Positions 46,878-62,376 of a DNA stretch of 62,376 nt are shown in pieces. A program made the position numbers and the translations under genes. The notes under the pieces are model-generated. The model was not told where the DNA came from and did no database searches. It saw only the letters and a list, made by a program, of their open reading frames with translations. Position 1 is the first letter of the stretch. The number at the start of each line of letters is the position of its first letter. Source of the DNA: Desulfobacterales bacterium (GTDB lineage: Bacteria > Desulfobacterota > Desulfobacteria > Desulfobacterales > JALSRD01); assembly GCA_026984935.1 (NCBI GenBank), contig JALSRD010000039.1, positions 1 to 62,376 of the forward strand, written 5' to 3'.

Positions 46878-48068
46878 TCACGACAACTGGCCGATAAAAG
46901 CCGCGATGCGCTCGATTCCCTGTTCGATGGTTTTGCGGGCGGCGGCAAAGCTCAACCGGATGTGGTGTGGTGCACCGAAAGCTTCACCGGGCACGACGGC
47001 CACGCCGGCATGCTCCAGCAGCCGCATGGTGAAATCCTGGGAGCTGGTAAGTTCCTGTTTGCGGTATTTTCTGCCGAGCAGGTTCCGGATGTCGGCGAAC
47101 AGGTAGAAGGTCGCCGCCGGCTTGCGGCAACGGATGCCAGCGGCGTTCAGGCCGGCGACCATCAGGTCCCGGCGCCGTCGGTAGGCGTCCGTCATGTCAG
47201 AGATGGTTCCCGGCCGGCAGTCCAGAGCGGCGGATGCTGCGGCCTGCGAGATGGAGCTGGGGCAGGTCGTGCGCTGGCCGGCCAGCTTGGCCATGGCGGC
47301 GATGATATCGGCGCGTCCGGCGGCGTATCCGATTCGCCAGCCGGTCATGGCAAAGGCCTTGGAACAGCCGTTGATGGTCACTGTCAGGTCAGCGATGCGC
47401 CGGTCGCATGCGGCAATGCTGTGGTGCCGGCCGTTAAAGACGATCTTTTCGTAGATTTCATCCGAGAGAATACGGATGCCGTGCCGGCGGCAGACATCGG
47501 CGATGGAAAGCAATTCTTCACGGGTATAAACGTTGCCGGCGGGGTTGCCGGGCGTGTTCAGAATCAGCACCCGGCTGCGTGCGCTGATCGCCCGTGACAG
47601 GTCGTCGGGGCTGAGTTTGTAGCCCAGATCGGCCCGCAGGGGCGTAAACACCGGTATGCCGTCGGCCAGTTTGACCATTTCCGGATAACTCACCCAGTAA
47701 GGCGTCGGGACAATGACCTCCTGGCGGGCACCGACCAGGACTTCTATAGCCAGCGCCAGCGCCTGTTTGGCACCGGCCGTGACCATGATCTGGTCATCGG
47801 TGCAGTGGAGCTGGTTGTCGCGGGACAGTTTGCGGCAGATGGCCGCCCTGATTTCAGGCGTGCCCCTGACCGGTGTGTAGCGTGTGGCTCCACGGGAAAT
47901 AGCGTCTATGGCGGCGTTTCTGATGACAGCCGGCGTGTCGAAGTCCGGCTCACCGGTGGCCAGCTGGATGACATCGCGGCCCCGAAGTTGCATCGCCAGC
48001 GCCAGTTCGCCGATCTGAACCGTTTTGGAGGCGGCAATGCGGGAGACTCTGTCAGAGATTTGCAGCAT
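46878..48068 (-). CDS. Class I aminotransferase, aspartate aminotransferase-type
   Basis: The 396-aa fold-type I enzyme has 'LATGEPDFDTP', 'YTPVRGTPEIRAAI', 'NTPGNPAGNVY', 'SDEIYEKIVF', PLP lysine in 'NGCSKAFAMTGWRIGY' and C-terminal 'HIRLSFA' with the substrate Arg. It belongs to the subgroup of prokaryotic aspartate/prephenate aminotransferases; the substrate cannot be fixed. An inverted repeat lies in its leader (48090-48126). Confidence 0.85.
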   Translation of the reverse strand: MLQISDRVSRIAASKTVQIGELALAMQLRGRDVIQLATGEPDFDTPAVIRNAAIDAISRGATRYTPVRGTPEIRAAICRKLSRDNQLHCTDDQIMVTAGAKQALALAIEVLVGARQEVIVPTPYWVSYPEMVKLADGIPVFTPLRADLGYKLSPDDLSRAISARSRVLILNTPGNPAGNVYTREELLSIADVCRRHGIRILSDEIYEKIVFNGRHHSIAACDRRIADLTVTINGCSKAFAMTGWRIGYAAGRADIIAAMAKLAGQRTTCPSSISQAAASAALDCRPGTISDMTDAYRRRRDLMVAGLNAAGIRCRKPAATFYLFADIRNLLGRKYRKQELTSSQDFTMRLLEHAGVAVVPGEAFGAPHHIRLSFAAARKTIEQGIERIAAFIGQLS

Positions 48069-48190: not shown

Positions 48191-48535
48191 CTACTTGCCG
48201 CAGAGCGTTTCACGGTTCAGAAAGGGCGCTTTCTTGAGCAGTTCAGCTACCTGCGGATCGTCGTCGAGCCAGTGGCGCAGATTGTCCAGCATGCTGGCCA
48301 CGTAGTGGTTGTTGCGGTCGTCGGCGGGAAAATAATTGACCCAAAGGCCGTCCTTCTGAAAGTCCACCAGGCCGGCGTCCTCCAGGATCTTCAGATGCTT
48401 GGAAACACTTGGCTGGGAAATGCCCAGCGCGCTCTGCAGCTCGCAGACGCACATGGTTTTAACCTGCAGCATCTTTACGATTTTTACGCGGTTGGGGTCG
48501 GACAGGGCTTTCATGACTTTGATGAAAGTTTTCAT
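48191..48535 (-). CDS. ArsR/SmtB family metal- or thiol-sensing repressor
   Basis: The 114-aa winged-helix protein has 'ALSDPNRVKIVKML', the metal-site-like 'CVCEL' on helix alpha3, recognition helix 'ISQPSVSKHLKILEDAGLV' core 'QPSVSKHLKIL' and beta wing 'KDGLWVNYF'. The CxC pair is the arsenite/metal site of ArsR, but the third Cys is not obvious, so the signal may be a metal or a thiol/sulfide state. It lies downstream of the FAD oxidoreductase and the rhodanese-ferritin gene in the same direction and may regulate them. Confidence 0.9.
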   Translation of the reverse strand: MKTFIKVMKALSDPNRVKIVKMLQVKTMCVCELQSALGISQPSVSKHLKILEDAGLVDFQKDGLWVNYFPADDRNNHYVASMLDNLRHWLDDDPQVAELLKKAPFLNRETLCGK

Positions 48536-48712: not shown

Positions 48713-49825
48713 TCACTCGATAGCCTGAAAGCGGCGCATGAAGCGGCGGTCGATGTAGTCCTTGGCGATAAACGCCGGCCAGCCGCCGAAGGTCATGCCC
48801 GACTTGTGCAAAATTCCCCTGCGGCCCCCCAGATTGAAGATCAGCAGATAGGCGCCGCCGTGATGAAAAGGCTCAAGCGGCCTGTCCTCCAGAGAAGCCA
48901 TGAGATTGTGATACAAGACCGGATTCTGGCGCACGGCGTAAACACCCACCTTGTCCAGAGGGTGGTCCTCGAAGTAGATGCAGTCCCCGCCGCCGAATAT
49001 TTCCGGGTAGGCCACGCACTGCAGGTAGCGGTTGACACGCAGGCCGCCGTCGGGTCCGGTGGGCAGGCCGGAGCGGGAAAAAATCTGCGACGGTTTGACA
49101 CCCAGCGCCAGGAAAATCAGGTCGCAGGCCTGCTCGTGGCCGTTTTCAAGGCGGATCCGGCCATCTGTGATTTCGTTCACGCGGCTGTGTTCGAGGATTT
49201 GGATGCTGCGCCGCGTGAGGGAGCGTACGGCCATTTTGCGGATGCTGTCCGGAAAGGTTTTCATCAGGCGGCTGGCGGCGAAGATTGCAATGTCCGGCAT
49301 GTGGGCGGCATGGCGTTTCGCCAGCTGCCAGACGTTTCCGGCAATTTCCACCGCGGAGGGGCCGCCGCCCACGATACCGACCGAAATATGCCGCCGTCCC
49401 GCTTTTTCGAGGATGCGCGTGCGTGCATCGATCAGTTTTTCGATGGGCTTGACACCGAAAATGTCGGCACTGGCGGCGGTCATCCGCGGTTGCGGAACGT
49501 AGCTGCCGGCGTTGCAGGACAGCACATCGTAAGACAGGCGCTGGCCGGATTCCAGAAAAATTTCGCGCTGGCGCGCATCGATGCGCACCACTTTGTCCGT
49601 GATGAATGTGCCGCCGTCTTTCTCGACCACATGGCGCGTGGCAAAGCGGATTTCCTCCGGGGTGTAGGTGCCGCCCAGCATGCCCGGGCCCATGCCTGAA
49701 TAGTAGTGATAGGGTGACGGCCCGATTACGCTGACCCGGTGGCCCTTTTGCGTGAAGTTCCGCAGATGGGCAAGGGTTACCATGTGCGCATGGCCGCCGC
49801 CGATGAGCACGAGATGTCTGGGCAT
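48713..49825 (-). CDS. FAD-dependent pyridine nucleotide-disulfide oxidoreductase (NDH-2/SelD-associated type)
   Basis: The 370-aa flavoprotein has an N-terminal FAD motif in 'LVLIGGGHAHMVTLAHLR' core 'LIGGGHAHMVTL', a second nucleotide motif 'VGIVGGGPSAVEIAGN', and 'GGGDCIYFED' near the FAD ribityl site. The pattern 'GGGHAH...YYSGMGPGMLGGTY' resembles the NDH-2-like domain fused to selenophosphate synthetase SelD in some bacteria, from memory. It probably oxidises NAD(P)H or a sulfur/selenium species with a quinone or thiol acceptor. It starts 38 bp after the rhodanese-ferritin stop, suggesting one operon. Confidence 0.82.
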   Translation of the reverse strand: MPRHLVLIGGGHAHMVTLAHLRNFTQKGHRVSVIGPSPYHYYSGMGPGMLGGTYTPEEIRFATRHVVEKDGGTFITDKVVRIDARQREIFLESGQRLSYDVLSCNAGSYVPQPRMTAASADIFGVKPIEKLIDARTRILEKAGRRHISVGIVGGGPSAVEIAGNVWQLAKRHAAHMPDIAIFAASRLMKTFPDSIRKMAVRSLTRRSIQILEHSRVNEITDGRIRLENGHEQACDLIFLALGVKPSQIFSRSGLPTGPDGGLRVNRYLQCVAYPEIFGGGDCIYFEDHPLDKVGVYAVRQNPVLYHNLMASLEDRPLEPFHHGGAYLLIFNLGGRRGILHKSGMTFGGWPAFIAKDYIDRRFMRRFQAIE

Positions 49826-49863: not shown

Positions 49864-50703
49864 TCAGCCGTCGTCACTCAGTTGCGCCATGAGCTTCCCC
49901 AGCTGCGCCATATGGGTGCGCTCCTCTTCGGCAATACGTTTCAGCACGGATCGGCTGTGGGGGTTGGAACCGATTTCCGCCGCCCGTTGATAGAGGTCGA
50001 AAGCCTGGGCTTCGATGGACATGGCCAGCGAAACGATGTCGGCCGTCGACTCGAGGTCCGGGTCAAAGATGCGCAGGTACTCTGCGGTGGTCAAACCACC
50101 CTCCATGGCCGGGGCCGCCTGTTTTGCGGCAAACGTCTCGTGGGTCCACGCTTCGCCCGACAACGCGTTGTATTCATTCAAAAGGCGTTCCTGGTGCTTG
50201 ATTTCGATGGCCGCAAGGCGGCTGAAAAGCTGTTTTACATCGTTGTTTTGCACCTGTTTGCGCATGGACAGGTAAAACTCGCGCAGGCCTTCTTCAAGGG
50301 CGAAGGCCACGGTCAACGTTTCTTGGGGGGATTCATGCCCGCTAAAGAGCTCTAACCCCTGTTCCGGCAGGCCATAGGCGGCCGGGCTGTCCCATTTCTT
50401 GATCCCGCCGGAGATGTTGTATACCTGGTAGCCTTTGCCGGCCAGCATTTGCGCAGCCACCCGGCTGCGCCCGCCCACCCGTCAGTAGACCAGGGTAGGC
50501 TTCTGGGGGTTGATCTCGCCCAGGCGCTCTGAAAGCTCGGGAAGCGGTATCAGTTTGGCGCCCGGCAGGTGACCGGCCTGGTACTCCTCCGGCTGGCGGA
50601 CATCCAGGATGGTGAAAGATTCGGCCGAACGGGTCTGCATGAAATCCCGGGCCTCGGCGGCATCCAGGGATTTTACGGGCGTTAAAAATTGTTTCCAGCG
50701 CAT
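49864..50703 (-). CDS. Selenoprotein: rhodanese domain (Sec74) fused to ferritin-like domain
   Basis: An open frame of 280 codons is interrupted once, by TGA at codon 74 (50484-50482). Before it, a rhodanese domain ('FTILDVRQPEEYQAGHLPGA') runs to 'KPTLVY'; after it comes 'RVGGRSRVAAQML', the exact continuation of the rhodanese active loop, whose usual text is CRxGxRS. The TGA thus replaces the catalytic Cys. A perfect hairpin sits 12-31 bases downstream. Residues about 125-279 form a ferritin/rubrerythrin-like four-helix bundle with 'EEGLREFY', 'EIKHQERL', 'SIEAQAFDLY' and 'EEERTHMAQL' carboxylate/His ligands. Likely role: sulfur or selenium transfer coupled to di-iron redox or peroxide defence. 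Start ATG 50703 follows AAAGGAGAGG. Confidence 0.85.
50451..50470 (-). promoter_or_regulatory. Putative bacterial SECIS hairpin
   Basis: On the minus strand GCGCAGCC-GGGT-GGCTGCGC forms an uninterrupted 8-bp stem with a four-base loop, at +12 to +31 relative to the UGA. Bacterial SECIS elements are small stem-loops just after UGA with a G in the first loop positions; the loop G residues at +20 to +22 fit the usual 16-37 nt window. Confidence 0.75.
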
Positions 50704-50837
50704 GGGTTTCCTCTCCTTTCAAAAATCCTTACAAGAAAAGAGTATGCCAAAAGGGCGTTTGCGGGTCAAGTGAATTAGATGTGCAGCACGGGCCGGACCG
50801 GCGGATATGCCGGCCACAGCGTGCGATTGGACGGCAG

Positions 50838-55477: not shown

Positions 55478-57148
55478 TTACCTTCTGGTTTCAGCATCCG
55501 GGCCGAGCCGCTTTTGCGCCCAGACTGCCAGCTTTTCACGAAATATCTTCGAATTGTGGCGAATGTCAACCGGAAAGTCGGTGTGCAGCAAAATGGTGGA
55601 AATGGCGGCGGTTAATGGGCTCTGCTTCGCCAGTGCCAGCAGTTCACGCTGGATTTTGGCTTTTGCGGCGCGCTTGACCCGCCGGCGCAGCTCGACGCAC
55701 ATGACCGGTTGCTGGTGCGGCGGCCGCCCGATGCCCACCAGCGCGCTGCGCCGTACGGCGGGGTGACGGTTGAAGATCGCTTCGCAGGGCACGGTGTAGA
55801 GCATCTGCCGCTGCATGACGACACGCTGGCTCTTGCGGCCGCAGAACCACAGGCGGCCCCGTTTGTCGATCCATCCCAGGTCACCCATGCGATGCCAGAA
55901 ACGGTCGCCGTCTGCAATTTTGGCCAGCCGGTCGGCAGCCGGGTTCTCGAAATAGCGGCGGGTGACCAGGTCTCCGCAAACAGCGATTTCGCCGATTTCC
56001 CCATCGGGCACCTCCAGTTCCGGTCGCCAGTTTTCGATGGCCCCGTCGCTGATCGTAATGATGCGCAGCCGCGTGCCGGCCAACGGTCGCCCCACGCACA
56101 TGCCGTAGCCCTGTTCGCTCAGTTCCCGGGTCTTGCCCAGAATTTCGGCGCTGGCGATGGATGTCAGCGGGACGGCCTCGGTGGCGCCGTAAGGCGTATG
56201 GATCTCGCTGCCCGCAGCCAGCATACCGGCAAAGCGCGCGATATTTTCCGGATACACCGGCGCTCCGGCCGACACGACGCGTTTCAAGGAGGGCAGTTTG
56301 ATGCCGTGGGCCCGGCCGTAGCGCCCCACGCGGTCCAGCAGGGCCGGGGAGGCGAACATGTTGGTGACGCCGTGATTGGTGACAGCTTCGATGATTTTGC
56401 GCGGATCCACGTGCGCCGGCCGGGTGGGGTCCATGTCCGGTATGACGGCGGTCATGCCCAGGGCCGGGTCGAACAGCGCGAACAATGGAAAAGTGGGCAG
56501 GTCGATTTCCCCCGGACGGATGCCGAAGGCCTCCCGTATCTGGTGGATCTGGGCCCGGAAGTTGGCGTGCGTGTAAACAACGCCCTTGGCCGGACCGGTG
56601 CTGCCGGTGGTGAACAAAATGGCCGCCGTGTCGTCGGCGCCGGTGGTGGTCGGCGTAAGCGGTGCAAATGGCGACCGCGACAGGTGCGCCAGGGTCGTGC
56701 CGCCCCAGAACCACCGTTTCCCCACCGTGACCCAGACCGACACGCTGCGGAAAAATTTGGGGAAGCATTTTCGCAGGGCATGCGCCGGCGGGATGCCAAT
56801 GAAGGCCTGCGGCCGGCTGGACTGCAGACAGTGCAGCATACGCCAGAGCCCCATGCCCGGATCGACGACCACCGGTACGGCTGCGGCCTTGAAGAGCGCG
56901 AAGGTCAGCACGAAAAAGTCCAGGCTCGGCCGCACCATCACAATGGTACGCATGCCGGGCGCCAGGCCGTATGCGCCAAGTGCCCGGGCCAGACGGCTGG
57001 ATTCGCGCTCCAGCTGGGCGAAGGTCAGGTGGGTATAGGCCACGCGCCCAAACCGGTCGCGGGTGTGCGGAAAAACCACCGCCCGCCGGTGGGGATGGGC
57101 GCGTGCGGCGTTGCTGAGCAGTTCGGCGATGTTGAAGGCTTCGCTCAT
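55478..57148 (-). CDS. oleC: OleC-like beta-lactone synthetase (AMP-dependent ligase fold)
   Basis: The 556-aa ANL-superfamily protein has the P-loop-like 'ILFTTGSTGPAKGVVYTH' core 'FTTGSTGPAKGV', 'TPYGATEAVPLTSI', 'GEIAVCGDLVTRRYF' and 'HRMGDLGWIDKRGRLWFCGR' core 'MGDLGWIDKRGRL'. OleC turns a beta-hydroxy acid into a beta-lactone in long-chain olefin synthesis. 'FPLFALFDPALGMTAVIPDMDP' core 'FALFDPALGMTAVIPDMDP' is typical of OleC-like members, from memory. It overlaps oleB by 4 bp, and the oleA-oleB-oleC order supports the call. Confidence 0.88.
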   Translation of the reverse strand: MSEAFNIAELLSNAARAHPHRRAVVFPHTRDRFGRVAYTHLTFAQLERESSRLARALGAYGLAPGMRTIVMVRPSLDFFVLTFALFKAAAVPVVVDPGMGLWRMLHCLQSSRPQAFIGIPPAHALRKCFPKFFRSVSVWVTVGKRWFWGGTTLAHLSRSPFAPLTPTTTGADDTAAILFTTGSTGPAKGVVYTHANFRAQIHQIREAFGIRPGEIDLPTFPLFALFDPALGMTAVIPDMDPTRPAHVDPRKIIEAVTNHGVTNMFASPALLDRVGRYGRAHGIKLPSLKRVVSAGAPVYPENIARFAGMLAAGSEIHTPYGATEAVPLTSIASAEILGKTRELSEQGYGMCVGRPLAGTRLRIITISDGAIENWRPELEVPDGEIGEIAVCGDLVTRRYFENPAADRLAKIADGDRFWHRMGDLGWIDKRGRLWFCGRKSQRVVMQRQMLYTVPCEAIFNRHPAVRRSALVGIGRPPHQQPVMCVELRRRVKRAAKAKIQRELLALAKQSPLTAAISTILLHTDFPVDIRHNSKIFREKLAVWAQKRLGPDAETRR

Positions 57149-58110
57149 GACCGATAAACCGCCCCGGTGTTTTTTTGCAGAAAGTGCCGCACCCTCGCGC
57201 TGACCGCCTGGGGGGCATCTTCCAGCAGATAGTGGCCGGCATTTTTAAAAACATGCACTTCGGCCTGCGGCAGGCGCCGGCGCCAGGCGGCAAGGTAGTC
57301 TGTGTCAAATACGAAATCTTTAGCTCCCCAGCAGATCAGGGCCGGCCGGTTTTTAAAGCGCTTCAGGCCGCCATCGACCCTCCGGGCCAGTTCATAGGAC
57401 GGGTCGCAACGAGACAGCGGGATGTCGCGCACGAACCACAGTGTCGCCAAGCGGCTTGCCGGGGTGGCGTAGGGCGCCAGCAGGGCCTGCCGGATCTCGG
57501 GCTTAAGCGGCCGGGCCGGCGCCATGTAAACCGCGGCGCGTGCAAAAAGGTTCAGCCCCAGCACCGCGCCGGCGGCCAGGGGGCCGCCCCGGCGCACCAG
57601 CTGCAGCCGCAGGGGGAGTTTTTTGCCGCCCGGCGGCAGGAAAGCGGCCGTGTTCAGAATCACCAGGCGTGCGACGCGCCGGGGATGCCGCACAGCCCAT
57701 GCCATGCCGATCATACCGCCCCAGTCATGCATCACCAGGGTGACGCCGCGCCGGATGCCCAGTGCGTCGATCAGTGCTTCCAGGTCGTCCACGCGGCTTT
57801 GAAGCCGGAAATCGTAGCCGCCGGGCCGCGGTTTGTCCGACAGGCCGCAGCCCATGTGGTCGGGCACGATCACCCGGCAGAAATCCCGCAGGCCGCATAT
57901 CAGGTGGCGGAAGTAGAAGGACCAGGTGGGGTTGCCGTGCAGCATCAGTACCGGCGGGCCGCTTCCCTCGTCGAGGTAATGGTAGCGCAGGCCGTGCAAA
58001 GACAGGAAGTGGGACCGGAAAGGGTAGTGTCCGGCCAAGTACCGCCGGTTTGGGGTGGGCGCTTCTTTGCGGGTGCTTTTTCGCGGCCGGTTTGGCTGTT
58101 CTGGCGGCAT
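57145..58110 (-). CDS. oleB: OleB-like alpha/beta hydrolase (beta-lactone decarboxylase)
   Basis: The 321-aa haloalkane-dehalogenase-like hydrolase has the nucleophile Asp129 in 'VMHDWGGMIGMAW', 'HGNPTWSFYFRHL' (oxyanion and halide-like Asn/Trp) and the catalytic His in 'NAGHYLLEDAP'. OleB decarboxylates the beta-lactone to a cis-olefin. ATG 58110 has GGAG 11 bases upstream, overlapping the end of oleA; the ORF's earlier start is rejected. It overlaps oleC by 4 bp. Confidence 0.9.
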   Translation of the reverse strand: MPPEQPNRPRKSTRKEAPTPNRRYLAGHYPFRSHFLSLHGLRYHYLDEGSGPPVLMLHGNPTWSFYFRHLICGLRDFCRVIVPDHMGCGLSDKPRPGGYDFRLQSRVDDLEALIDALGIRRGVTLVMHDWGGMIGMAWAVRHPRRVARLVILNTAAFLPPGGKKLPLRLQLVRRGGPLAAGAVLGLNLFARAAVYMAPARPLKPEIRQALLAPYATPASRLATLWFVRDIPLSRCDPSYELARRVDGGLKRFKNRPALICWGAKDFVFDTDYLAAWRRRLPQAEVHVFKNAGHYLLEDAPQAVSARVRHFLQKNTGAVYRS

Positions 58111-58114
58111 GGGC

Positions 58115-59155
58115 CTACCACTCCAGCCCAAGCATCAGGCAGTTGAGCCCGCTGCCGATGCCCAGGAAGGCCACTCGCTGGCGGTGCTTGAGAAACCGGC
58201 GTTCAGAGGCAATGGCCGCCGTGATGGGCAGCGAAACCGTGCCGATGTTGCCCAGGTGGGCAAAGGTGGAAAAGTCTTTGTGCGCCGGGATGCCCAGCTT
58301 TTCCAGGATGGTCCGCTGATGGGTGGCGCCCACCTGGTGACAGATCACCTTGTCGGGCAGGTCCGCCGGCCAGGCCAGTTCAGCGCGAAAAGCCCTGAAA
58401 GTCTCGATGCCCAGGGCCACCCCGTGGTTCAGCACCGCCACTGAATCGGTTTCCATAAAACGCGTGCCTTCAGCCAAACGGCCGTGCTCCGGACCCCAGC
58501 GGCAGAGGTCATGGTAGGCCGGCGCACTGCGCGCAACGCCGCCGGCCAGGCGGTGTCCACGGCTGTTGGCCGCAGCGCCGGTGAGGACGACGGCCACCGC
58601 GCCGGAGCCGCCGGTCAGGGTGGCCACGGTTTTCTTGAACATCTCCATGGTGGGGCATTCGAGCAGGCGCTGAACCGAGATGTCGATGATCTGGCGCGAG
58701 GACTCGCAGGAGAGCACCATACCGGCCTCGATCTGCTTGAGTTCGATGGCGGCGGCGACCTGCAGCATGCCGTTTAAAACCCCCAGGCAGGCATTGGAGA
58801 CATCGTAGATCTGGGCTTCGGGGCCCACACCCAGGCGATGGGCGACTTCACAGGCCGTGGCCGGCTCCAGCCAGTCCCGGCAGACGCCGCCGTAAACCAG
58901 CATGCCGATGTCAGAGACGTCCACGGCCGACTGGTCCAGGGCTTTGCGGCCGGCCTGCAGCGCTCCCTGACTCATGGTGAAATCCGTGCCCCACAGGCGA
59001 CGCTCCCGCACTCCGGTGAGCGCTTCGAGTTGCCCCGGTTGAAAGTGGAGTTTGGCATACAGCGGTGCCAGGCGCTCCTCCAGGTCTTCGGAAGTCAGCA
59101 CGTTGGGCGCCAGCTCGTAGCCAAAGGCGTCGATGTAGACATTCGAAAAAAGCAT
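58115..59155 (-). CDS. oleA: OleA-like acyl-CoA head-to-head condensing enzyme
   Basis: The 346-aa thiolase-fold KAS III-like protein has Cys123 ('NACLGVLNG'), His273 ('ICHQVGATHQ') and Asn303 ('HLGNIGTVSLP'). Glu97 in 'DWLEPATAC' may be the OleA-type glutamate that reaches the partner active site. OleA condenses two acyl-CoAs to a beta-keto acid. It precedes oleB by 4 bp and follows the synthase gene by about 60 bp. A plain FabH is less likely given the oleBC context. Confidence 0.9.
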   Translation of the reverse strand: MLFSNVYIDAFGYELAPNVLTSEDLEERLAPLYAKLHFQPGQLEALTGVRERRLWGTDFTMSQGALQAGRKALDQSAVDVSDIGMLVYGGVCRDWLEPATACEVAHRLGVGPEAQIYDVSNACLGVLNGMLQVAAAIELKQIEAGMVLSCESSRQIIDISVQRLLECPTMEMFKKTVATLTGGSGAVAVVLTGAAANSRGHRLAGGVARSAPAYHDLCRWGPEHGRLAEGTRFMETDSVAVLNHGVALGIETFRAFRAELAWPADLPDKVICHQVGATHQRTILEKLGIPAHKDFSTFAHLGNIGTVSLPITAAIASERRFLKHRQRVAFLGIGSGLNCLMLGLEW

Positions 59156-59218
59156 CTTGCGATTATACCTGCGGTAAATGGTGTTGTGTTTTTTTTAGGG
59201 CATACAAATATAACGTGC

Positions 59219-62200
59219 TCAGTGCTGCGGCACAAGGGCAATGCCGAAATCCTGCATTTCATAGATGCACAGGCCATCCACCTTCAGGAATCCGGAGGCC
59301 AGCAGGCGCGGTTGCGGCGGCGGGTCAATGCGATGGATTACGGCTTCGACGGTTACGTGCCGGTTTTGCGGGGTGACCTGACCGCGGTAGACCCAACGGT
59401 GCGCTTTCCCGACGACCAGCGAAAAGCAGTGGTCCTTTTCGAGCTGTGGCCAGCGTGCCAGTGCCGCGTGCTTCAGCAGTTGGATGAAAGCTTCTATCCC
59501 CAGGGAACCGGGCCAGACCGGGTCCTGGAAAAAGTGGGCCGCAAAAAACCACTCGTCCGGGTCCACGCGTTTGATCCCGCGAATATAGCCGCGCCCGTGG
59601 GGGCCGCCGTCCGGAATGTAGGCCTCGATGCGATCGAGCATGCGCAGGGCGGAAGCGGGCATGCGCAGGCCCCGGGCGGGATCTCTCGGAGGGCCTTGCG
59701 CCGCCGCTGCTGGGGTGAGCGGCGGGATGTCCTTGAAATCGCAGAAAGATGCAGCCGCGATTTCCGGTTTGGCGGGCTGCCAGCAGCGCGTCTCGGCATC
59801 TGCAATGCCATTTTGCCGCGACAGCGCCCGACGGGTGAAAAAACCAAAGTAGGTGCTGCCGGTGTACACCGGTTGGTCACTTGTCAGAATTTCAAAATCG
59901 AAATGCTCGATGATCATGTCGGCGGCCTGGCTGACCTTGGTCAGGCGGGCCCGCAGGCACAGTTCCTGTGGGCCGGGGCCCACGTCGGCTGCCAGGCGAC
60001 CCCGGCCGCCGAGATTGCGAAAGTGCAAACCAACCCGGCTGGCAAGCGCCGATCCGAGATAGGCGGCCAGCCATCCGCAGGATTGCAGCGCGCATTCCAG
60101 CAGCACGCAGTAAGGCATGTGCGGGTTGCGATCGGCGGCAAAGTACCAGTTGCTCGGCCGGACGTGATGTTCGGCCGTGATCCAGCCGCCGGGTGCCAGC
60201 TGCAGGGCCGGCGGTTCGGCGTCGGTAACGCGGTCGAGGAAAAGAAACGGCGGCGACGGCAGGCGTGCTACGAAGTCGCCGTTGTCAAAGCGTGCATAGG
60301 CCTGGCCGAAACAGGCCGAGGGCCGGCCGCGGGCGAAAGCTTCGAGCTGCGCACGGTCGCAAAGCGGACCGGGTCGGGTCCGGGGCCACAGCGTCTGGAT
60401 TTCAGCTTGTGTGACGTTGGTCATTTTCAGGGTGAGGTCGTCGAAAGAGACGATGTGGTGGTCGTCGGCGAACATGTGGGCGTCGGCCACGGCATAGGGC
60501 TCCGGGCCGTACCCCAGTTCCTTGACTTCAACCTCGTAGACCACGTGGCGGGTGCGGGGGGTAACCGGGCCGCGGCATTTCAGGCGACTGGCAATACCGG
60601 CAACGGGCTCATAACAGGTGTCGGGGCGGTCGCTGAGCCATCCCATACGCTGCAGAAAGATACGCAGCGTGTGGGCGCAGCACTCGTACATCAATGTTCC
60701 CGGCATGACGCGGTCATCGACGAAATGGCAGGTCAGAAACCAGTCGTCGGGGTGGATGTCGCTCTGGGACCGGATGCTGCCCAGGCCGTAGCGCCCGCCG
60801 GCGGGGTCGATTTCAAGTACACGGTGGATAAGCCGCATGTGCCCCCCCGGCAGCCGCAGGCCGGGGGCGATGGATTTGCCGGCAAAGGCCGGCCCGAAAC
60901 ACTGCTCCAGCGCCCCGCGGCGCAGGGCGTCGATCTGGCGTTCATCGTAAGTTTCATGGGCCTCAAAAGGCGCAAGCGGCCGCCATCCTTGGGGAAGCCT
61001 GCCTGGCTGCGGGGACCGTGCGGACGCTTTGCGCACGATACCGCCGGAGGACTCGATTTCCGTGGCGGTAAAGAAGCCGGCACATCCGGACCGCATGGAG
61101 ATCAGGCGCTGATCGCCGATATAACCGTCGAAATGAAAAAAGAAAAGGTAGGTTTCCCCCTGGCGCACGAATCTTTCGATTTCGATTTCATAGCGGACCA
61201 CTTCGTTGGGCACCGGCAGGCCGCGGTGGAAAGTGACGCTGGCATCCAGCAAGCGGTAGGTGCGTCTGCCGCGCACCGCCAGATCGATACCCAGGTAGGC
61301 ACACAGGAAAAGGTCAGCCTGGCCGGCCTCCACCGCGATGCACACCGGCGCCCGGCCGCCGTCCAGGTACCAGGCATTTTGCTTGACATCGTGTTCGGTG
61401 ACGATCTTGCCCGGTCCCAGTGAACCCTTGCGGCCGTGGATCGATAAAATCCGGTCGACCAGCATCAGGGGCTCATCGGGCAGGCGTACGCGGGCGGCAA
61501 AGCGGTCGACCTCGGCAAACTCGGGCCCCAGCACCCTGGCCGCGCTGCCGGTGGCAAATTCCAGGCACTGCTCGCGGGAAAAGGCCGGTGGGTTTTTAAC
61601 GCGTGGTCCCGCCGGACTGGCCGGTACCTGTCGATGGAGGTCCGTGTACAGCTGCAGTGCGCCTGCATAGCTGTCAAGCAGGCGGGCCGAGAGCTGCAGG
61701 AATCTGCGGTGGGCCGCGGCCGTGGCGTTACTGTTTTCCAGCAGGCGTTCAAGTGCGCGCGCCGGAACGGCTTTGGATCTCGGCTGCAGTGGCGTGGAAG
61801 GTGCCGTTTTACGGGGTTTCGCCCGCAGACAGCGGCGGGCTGCGTCCGGGATGGGCAAAATGCCGCCCACCGGCAGATGCAAAAGCCGCTCCGCCGGCGG
61901 GTTTTGCGTCCCGGGGTGTGCATCCCGGGCGTTGTCATATAGAAAGGACAGGCCGACCGGGACCGCTTGGAGCAGCAGCCGGGCCAGCAGGTGCAGCAGT
62001 CCGGCGATTTCGTCGCGTCCCGGCGGGTTTGCCGAAATGGCCAGGTGCGGGCGGTCTGCCAGAATGTCCGCGATCATGCGCGTGCACGAGGCGCGCGGCC
62101 CGGTTTCTACAAAGATGCGCACGCCGTCCGCATAAGCCCGCTGGATGAGCGCGGGAAAGTCGAAGCCGTCCAGAGCCTGGGCGAGGATCGAGTCGGCGGC

Positions 62201-62376
62201 CGTGTCCGGGTTGAGGTCGTAGGCGCGCGCCCAGGCGCAGCTGTAAAAGCGTATGCCGGCGACGGGCCGTGTGGCGGTGCGGTGCAGGTTGCGGTAGGCG
62301 TCGCGGACACTTTGCACGGCGTCGCAGTGTACCGTGGTGGTGCCTCGCAGGTAGACGGCATCGGCGGCAAGCGCCT
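59219..62376 (-). CDS. PfaC-like multidomain synthase, C-terminal part (AT-like plus four FabA-like hotdog domains)
   Basis: The frame is open to the window edge, so the N-terminus is missing. Visible in about 1050 residues: the end of an acyltransferase-like domain ('GIRFYSCAWARAYDL', 'VRIFVETGPRASCTRMI'), a linker, then four FabA-type hotdog units: near 'EPLMLVDRILSIHG', 'MRLIHRVLEIDPAGG' with 'FVDDRVMPGTLMYECCAH', 'PFLFLDRVTDAEP' with 'MPYCVLLECALQSCGWLAAYLG' core 'LLECALQSCGW', and 'LRMLDRIEAYIPDGG' with 'FFQDPVWPGSLGIEAF'. PfaC of PUFA synthases carries paired DH domains of this kind; heterocyst-glycolipid synthases are an alternative. Located just upstream of oleA, it may make the unsaturated acyl chains that OleABC joins. 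Confidence 0.8.
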   Translation of the reverse strand, partial: ALAADAVYLRGTTTVHCDAVQSVRDAYRNLHRTATRPVAGIRFYSCAWARAYDLNPDTAADSILAQALDGFDFPALIQRAYADGVRIFVETGPRASCTRMIADILADRPHLAISANPPGRDEIAGLLHLLARLLLQAVPVGLSFLYDNARDAHPGTQNPPAERLLHLPVGGILPIPDAARRCLRAKPRKTAPSTPLQPRSKAVPARALERLLENSNATAAAHRRFLQLSARLLDSYAGALQLYTDLHRQVPASPAGPRVKNPPAFSREQCLEFATGSAARVLGPEFAEVDRFAARVRLPDEPLMLVDRILSIHGRKGSLGPGKIVTEHDVKQNAWYLDGGRAPVCIAVEAGQADLFLCAYLGIDLAVRGRRTYRLLDASVTFHRGLPVPNEVVRYEIEIERFVRQGETYLFFFHFDGYIGDQRLISMRSGCAGFFTATEIESSGGIVRKASARSPQPGRLPQGWRPLAPFEAHETYDERQIDALRRGALEQCFGPAFAGKSIAPGLRLPGGHMRLIHRVLEIDPAGGRYGLGSIRSQSDIHPDDWFLTCHFVDDRVMPGTLMYECCAHTLRIFLQRMGWLSDRPDTCYEPVAGIASRLKCRGPVTPRTRHVVYEVEVKELGYGPEPYAVADAHMFADDHHIVSFDDLTLKMTNVTQAEIQTLWPRTRPGPLCDRAQLEAFARGRPSACFGQAYARFDNGDFVARLPSPPFLFLDRVTDAEPPALQLAPGGWITAEHHVRPSNWYFAADRNPHMPYCVLLECALQSCGWLAAYLGSALASRVGLHFRNLGGRGRLAADVGPGPQELCLRARLTKVSQAADMIIEHFDFEILTSDQPVYTGSTYFGFFTRRALSRQNGIADAETRCWQPAKPEIAAASFCDFKDIPPLTPAAAAQGPPRDPARGLRMPASALRMLDRIEAYIPDGGPHGRGYIRGIKRVDPDEWFFAAHFFQDPVWPGSLGIEAFIQLLKHAALARWPQLEKDHCFSLVVGKAHRWVYRGQVTPQNRHVTVEAVIHRIDPPPQPRLLASGFLKVDGLCIYEMQDFGIALVPQH

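Follow-up and report, generated by a model that had tools for sequence, protein, structure and literature searches.

Rhodanese-like selenoproteins have been tabulated as forms 1-5 (PMC9312934, PMC13188914), and form 2 is printed in those tables with the motif UxxG and MBM9537886.1 as its example. In further sources, a Sargasso Sea family of rhodanese selenoproteins (PMC1088965), a "sulfurtransferase homologous to a rhodanese-like protein" among selenoproteins (PMC5029168, PMC2398784) and a rhodanese-like domain selenoprotein in a deltaproteobacterial MAG (PMC8318568) are reported. The protein analysed here is like these in having a rhodanese domain with a predicted selenocysteine (Sec), and the UxxG of form 2 fits its U74-R-V-G77; form 2 may therefore already include this fusion. 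The words "ferritin" and "rubrerythrin" have 0 occurrences in PMC9312934 and PMC13188914, and the accessible parts of PMC9312934, PMC13188914, PMC1794560, PMC8318568, PMC4561486, PMC5029168, PMC1088965, PMC7376266, PMC5317093, PMC10599522 and PMC2398784 describe no fusion to a di-iron domain. A literature search, incomplete in its coverage of the likely papers, returned no description of the di-iron fusion or of a gene pair with a flavoprotein. Thus, rhodanese selenoproteins are already known. What is new here is the flavoprotein gene that adjoins the fusion in 33 of 40 neighbourhoods, and the fusion also extends the rhodanese selenoproteins by a domain architecture that is well supported.

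Persulfide and CoA-disulfide reductases fused to a rhodanese (3NTA, 3ICR, 8A56, 6PFZ) share with this locus a rhodanese fold and an FAD enzyme, and they are among the better sequence matches of its rhodanese domain. In those proteins the flavin enzyme and the rhodanese form one chain, whereas here they are encoded by two genes, and the pair is further set apart by its predicted Sec, its putative di-iron domain and a flavoprotein with a lone invariant cysteine, C282. Rubrerythrin/ferritin-like proteins (for example 2OH3 and the nigerythrin 1YUZ) have the same four-helix fold and two ExxH motifs, and the proposed ligands are invariant here, but our protein has no rubredoxin match, lacks cysteine outside position 74 and is fused to a rhodanese. 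Finally, the partner flavoprotein resembles the TIGR03169 (Nterm_to_SelD) and NDH-2 proteins by a full-length match and a TM score of 0.90, respectively, but it scores below the TIGR03169 cut-off and lacks a SelD fusion.

The reading frame and codon 74

The window, i.e. the whole stretch of 62,376 nucleotides that was analysed, is contig JALSRD010000039.1 (positions 1 to 62,376) of assembly GCA_026984935.1, from a Desulfobacterales bacterium. The features discussed below are as follows.

48191..48535, minus strand: ArsR/SmtB-type regulator (NF033788, 90.2 bits, cut-off 55)
48713..49825, minus strand: 370-residue FAD oxidoreductase of NDH-2 fold, likely operon partner (PF07992, 104.3 bits; TM 0.90 to YjlD)
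49864..50703, minus strand: coding sequence of the rhodanese/di-iron fusion, a predicted selenoprotein of 279 residues with Sec at 74 (translation with TGA read-through; homologues along the whole length that carry Cys or TGA at 74)
49891..50322, minus strand: rubrerythrin/ferritin-like four-helix domain, residues 128-271 (Pfam PF02915, E 6.5e-15, 56.2 bits)
50389..50646, minus strand: rhodanese domain, residues 20-105 (Pfam PF00581, E 1.6e-19, 70.7 bits; rhodanese fold, Z up to 15.1)
50451..50470, minus strand: SECIS-like hairpin, 8 bp with a GGGT loop, bases 12-31 past the TGA (folding; conservation in UGA rows)
50482..50484, minus strand: in-frame TGA, codon 74, predicted to be read as selenocysteine (only TGA, TGC or TGT in 134 homologue rows)
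50713..50717, minus strand: ribosome-binding-like AGGAG, 9 bases 5' of the ATG (sequence inspection)

The sequence-only reading had placed a 280-codon frame, broken solely by a TGA at codon 74, at 49864-50703 without naming a strand. These coordinates are correct, and the description holds on the minus strand, where the frame (50703-49864) runs from ATG to a terminal TGA (49866-49864) with codon 74 as its sole internal stop, followed by RVGGRSR; a plus-strand reading was rejected on account of three stops in that frame. A GTG-started ORF of 204 aa downstream of the TGA (50478-49864) appears in the ORF list, in agreement with the gene splitting that had been expected, and ORF calling without UGA read-through would cut this widespread fusion gene.

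Homologues were drawn from 291 genomes of the source organism's class and from genome contigs. The 134 rows obtained are the best 110 class-genome places (window included) and all 24 from the contig search; sequences were fetched for the best 80 class-genome places lacking a locus, some genomes are present in two collections, partial rows were kept in the count, and the rows represent 129 distinct proteins. Codon 74 was TGA in 74 rows, TGC in 34 and TGT in 26 (70, 34 and 25 of the distinct proteins), and no row had any other codon. Among 29 rows from a scan of the phylum, 12 had TGA, 17 Cys and none another codon; one of the TGA rows, L199, repeats L125, leaving 28 new rows (11 TGA, 17 Cys). 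The sequence-only reading had held that Cys or UGA at this position with no frame loss would support Sec, and solely TGA or Cys was found in the 134 + 28 rows. Its description of the fusion as unusual, on the other hand, needs qualifying, as this is a widespread family in its lineage.

The closest relative is a genus mate with 71% identity; it shares the TGA at codon 74, and its terminal stop is TAA. Relative to this protein, dN was 0.19 and dS 1.25 upstream of the TGA, and 0.25 and 1.22 downstream, values which indicate that purifying selection is acting on either side; for more distant relatives, dS was mostly unusable. The TGA goes beyond chance, since every row examined has TGA or Cys at this codon and selection acts on both sides. 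It could be argued that it is a sequencing error, or marks a broken gene or two separate genes, given a draft assembly of 112 contigs and the GTG-started ORF that follows the TGA. However, 73 other rows, amounting to 69 additional distinct proteins, also have TGA at this codon and the remaining rows have Cys, purifying selection is indicated on either side, and a split would sever the rhodanese domain at its active site. Sequencing error and pseudogene were therefore rejected on the first two grounds, and any account without a selenoprotein is very improbable. Instead, UGA 74 almost certainly encodes Sec, at the active site of the rhodanese domain.

The genome, which is 99.45% complete, contains selA, selB, selC and selD, the four genes that had been named as a check, all above cut-off (selA 613.6 bits, selB 387.2, tRNA-Sec 76.1, selD 362.3). 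Its selD itself holds one TGA, in the context TCG-U-AAKVSP, with a hairpin after the UGA. Across the class, selA was detected in 280 of 291 genomes; it was present in 57 of the 60 class genomes with the UGA form (window included) and in all 48 with the Cys form; the three UGA-form genomes in which it was not detected are MAGs that are 80-92% complete. The presence of selA fails to separate Sec from Cys forms among the class genomes, and since all 48 Cys-form genomes carry it, losing the Sec system does not account for the Cys forms. On a tree of 114 full-length distinct proteins, Sec and Cys were exchanged at least 18 times. In a class where selA is this common, these switches amount to a natural experiment on what makes an enzyme that handles sulfur acquire selenium or give it up.

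The hairpin downstream of UGA 74

Bacterial SECIS elements consist of a stem-loop shortly 3' of the UGA with a G in the apical loop, and the hairpin in the window follows this rule on both points. The perfect 8-bp stem with a GGGT loop, which had been noticed from the letters as beginning at base 12 past the TGA, is present, with 11 bases intervening. Folding of the UGA plus 45 nt as RNA gave -28.9 kcal/mol (z -3.80), and 0 of 200 shuffles were equally stable. The Rfam SECIS models gave no match at the hairpin; the sole Rfam match, SECIS_4 on the plus strand at 50575-50619, lies away from it and scored 14.5 bits versus a gathering score of 38.

For the comparison of homologues, a core stem of 6 pairs was defined (bases 13-18 with 25-30) and was counted where at least 5 of the 6 were paired, a criterion set after sight of the window's hairpin, with the window itself among the 70 UGA rows. 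The core stem formed in 68 of 70 UGA rows as compared to 16 of 59 Cys rows, while synonymous recoding led us to expect approximately 2.9 of 6 core pairs in UGA and Cys rows alike. This difference is largely due to Ala codon 83, which is GCT in 61/70 UGA rows and 14/59 Cys rows and enables pair 16-27 (formed in 61/70 and 15/59, respectively). The outermost core pair, 13-30, formed in 40/70 UGA rows versus 12/59 Cys rows, an A-U replaces C-G at pair 15-28 in two UGA rows, and the best uninterrupted stem showed a slight separation (mean 6.24 in UGA rows versus 5.83 in Cys rows).

Because Fisher p values on the stem ignore kinship, a tree-based control was run, using a tree of the 114 full-length distinct proteins made by a quick method with residue 74 masked. 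Supported branches yielded 8 independent pairs; on average, the stem went with UGA in 5.6 of them and against it in 0.0, with a median p of 0.031 (range 0.016-0.375), whereas codon 83 alone gave a median p of 0.125. Beyond the class, in the phylum scan, the same criterion identified the stem in 6 of the 11 rows with UGA and in 2 of the 17 with Cys, and this weaker signal suggests that distant members may use another stem. The prediction that UGA 74 is decoded by SelB and tRNA-Sec, aided by the hairpin just 3' of it, is strongly supported.

Domains of the fusion protein and its flavoprotein neighbour

The sequence-only reading had proposed a rhodanese-ferritin fusion with UGA in place of the active-site Cys, and the Pfam matches, the fold matches and the TGA/Cys-only homologues all agree with this. 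The AlphaFold model of the fusion had a mean pLDDT of 80.3, with residues 100-112 poor, and its first 50 Foldseek matches were mostly rhodanese domains. In fold, its rhodanese part most resembles the rhodanese domains of NADH-dependent persulfide and CoA-disulfide reductases; by sequence, its best solved relative is the thiosulfate sulfurtransferase 1YT8, with 3ICR third. The active-site loop is conserved in an alignment of 39 sequences, in which position 74 (TGA read as Cys) is invariant. The protein has both the rhodanese fold and a Cys/Sec in the active-site loop. No NCBIfam model scored the protein above its cut-off, and assignment to NF041203, the CxU-type rhodanese-related (seleno)protein, was rejected (21.2 bits versus 115; residue 72 is V).

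Residues 128-271 gave fold matches to a COG1633 protein and to ferritins with Z of 12-13.6, in a range that helical bundles reach easily. In rubrerythrin/ferritin-like proteins, two ExxH motifs and two further Glu residues bind iron. The corresponding residues here, E137, E167xxH170, E231 and E261xxH264, are invariant in the same 39 sequences, and we propose a putative di-iron site on the basis of this ligand pattern and the fold. Of the rubrerythrin-like module suggested earlier, the ferritin-like di-iron domain stands, while the rubredoxin part of a full rubrerythrin was not found. Classical rubrerythrin carries a rubredoxin FeCys4 domain; this identity was rejected for our protein, which has no rubredoxin match at E 0.001 and no Cys apart from position 74. 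Since there is no second Cys, another molecule must provide any resolving thiol or electrons.

The flavoprotein gene begins 38 bases past the stop of the fusion gene. Of the 40 fetched flanks, 33 have a homologue adjoining the fusion gene on the same strand: it lies downstream in 31, where 13 to 269 bases separate it from the fusion's aligned end, and directly upstream in two (L194, 219 bases; L195, 84 bases away). Among the other neighbour families, with ORFs overlapping the fusion or flavoprotein genes left out, the most frequent is present in 9 of the 40. The pairing is common to UGA-form (22/25) and Cys-form (11/15) flanks and is therefore independent of selenium. In the phylum scan, 6 of the 29 rows had a flavoprotein homologue within flanks of 1.5 kb, so that the pairing is mainly a feature of the class. 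Separately, contigs labelled Candidatus Scalindua (L056, L058, L060) carry a Cys-form fusion of 57-59% identity with the flavoprotein adjoining, reflecting either inter-phylum transfer or misbinning.

The high frequency of the pair bears on one alternative, in which the fusion is a rhodanese-type sulfurtransferase acting on thiosulfate or persulfide, its di-iron domain is structural or an iron store, and the flavoprotein is an ordinary quinone reductase linked by chance. The conserved active-site loop, the relationship to 1YT8 and the NDH-2-like fold of the neighbour are consistent with this account. However, none of the proposed di-iron ligand columns varies across the 39 sequences, and this and the excess of the pair over the next family (33 versus 9 of 40 flanks) argue that the parts matter together. 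We regard this alternative as unlikely.

The flavoprotein has a TM score of 0.90 to YjlD, an NDH-2 protein, and may have NADH:quinone activity. Sulfide:quinone oxidoreductase (SQR) has conserved redox cysteines; an identity as classical SQR was rejected, despite a similar overall fold, on account of the single invariant Cys column, C282, in 43 sequences. The flavoprotein also matches TIGR03169 over its full length with 259.2 bits, the best such match in the genome but below the cut-off of 310; as a stand-alone ORF of 370 aa with this score, it was rejected as Nterm_to_SelD. This match nevertheless raises a second alternative, namely that the selenoprotein serves the supply of selenium or sulfur, with the rhodanese feeding selenophosphate or cofactor synthesis and the flavoprotein reducing elemental Se or S like the related domain fused to SelD. 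SelD fusions with an NADH dehydrogenase-like domain are described in PMC4561486, in line with this idea. On the other side, the TIGR03169 score is below cut-off, the genome's selD is a separate, UGA-containing gene elsewhere, and the di-iron domain is left unexplained; with selA in 280/291 class genomes, co-occurrence is uninformative either way. A role in Se or S supply thus seems rather improbable.

A proposed redox role for the gene pair

We favour a reading in which a Sec-containing fusion protein and its flavoprotein act together in sulfane-sulfur or peroxide redox chemistry, with a probability of about 0.5 for this explanation as a whole. SelB and tRNA-Sec would decode UGA 74, assisted by the hairpin, to give one 279-residue selenoprotein, in which Sec74 would occupy the place of the persulfide-forming Cys of rhodaneses. 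Sec74 might then take up sulfane sulfur (Sec-S-) or undergo oxidation by peroxide, and the earlier suggestion of a selenium-based sulfur carrier is a reasonable inference. The resolving thiol or electrons would be supplied from outside the fusion protein, the NDH-2-like flavoprotein being the likely electron source or sink for the rhodanese, the di-iron site or both, and connecting the fusion protein with NAD(P)H or quinone. For the mechanism we draw an analogy to NADH-dependent persulfide reductases, suggested by the closeness of the rhodanese folds.

The source organism is probably an anaerobic sulfate reducer, judging from the names of its relatives (the 71% relative is labelled Desulfobacteraceae). 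In such an anaerobe, the likeliest job of the pair would be to clear the polysulfide or persulfide and the peroxide that arise when sulfide meets oxygen. This redox-detoxification role is plausible, at somewhat less than even odds. More tentatively, and with the odds clearly against it, the two genes could form a selenium-dependent redox module in which a flavin and a di-iron site are coupled to reduce or oxidise Sec-bound sulfane sulfur, which would make the pair a novel type of persulfide/peroxide enzyme in anaerobes of the sulfur cycle. The recurrent flavoprotein partner renders the function of the fusion directly testable. According to PMC7376266, the Desulfovibrio rhodanese Dde_0806 rises when cells are exposed to Pt/Pd; the paper also cites a rhodanese mutant as incapable of using hydrogen as donor.

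The ArsR-type regulator, among the flanks examined, lies beside the gene pair solely in the genus mate (L157, the same as L053), and its membership of the module is uncertain; it scored 48.5 bits versus a cut-off of 115 as TsoR. The order of this regulator (48191-48535) and an aminotransferase gene (46878-48068) is kept in the genus mate and absent from the other flanks.

Elsewhere in the window, four ORFs cluster on the minus strand of 55478-62317. Judged by eye on their translations, three of them resemble an AMP ligase (55478-57148), an alpha/beta-hydrolase (57145-58131) and a ketoacyl synthase III (58115-59155), and the fourth is large and contains FabA-like stretches (59219-62317); we take this cluster to resemble ole long-chain olefin genes beside PUFA-synthase genes.
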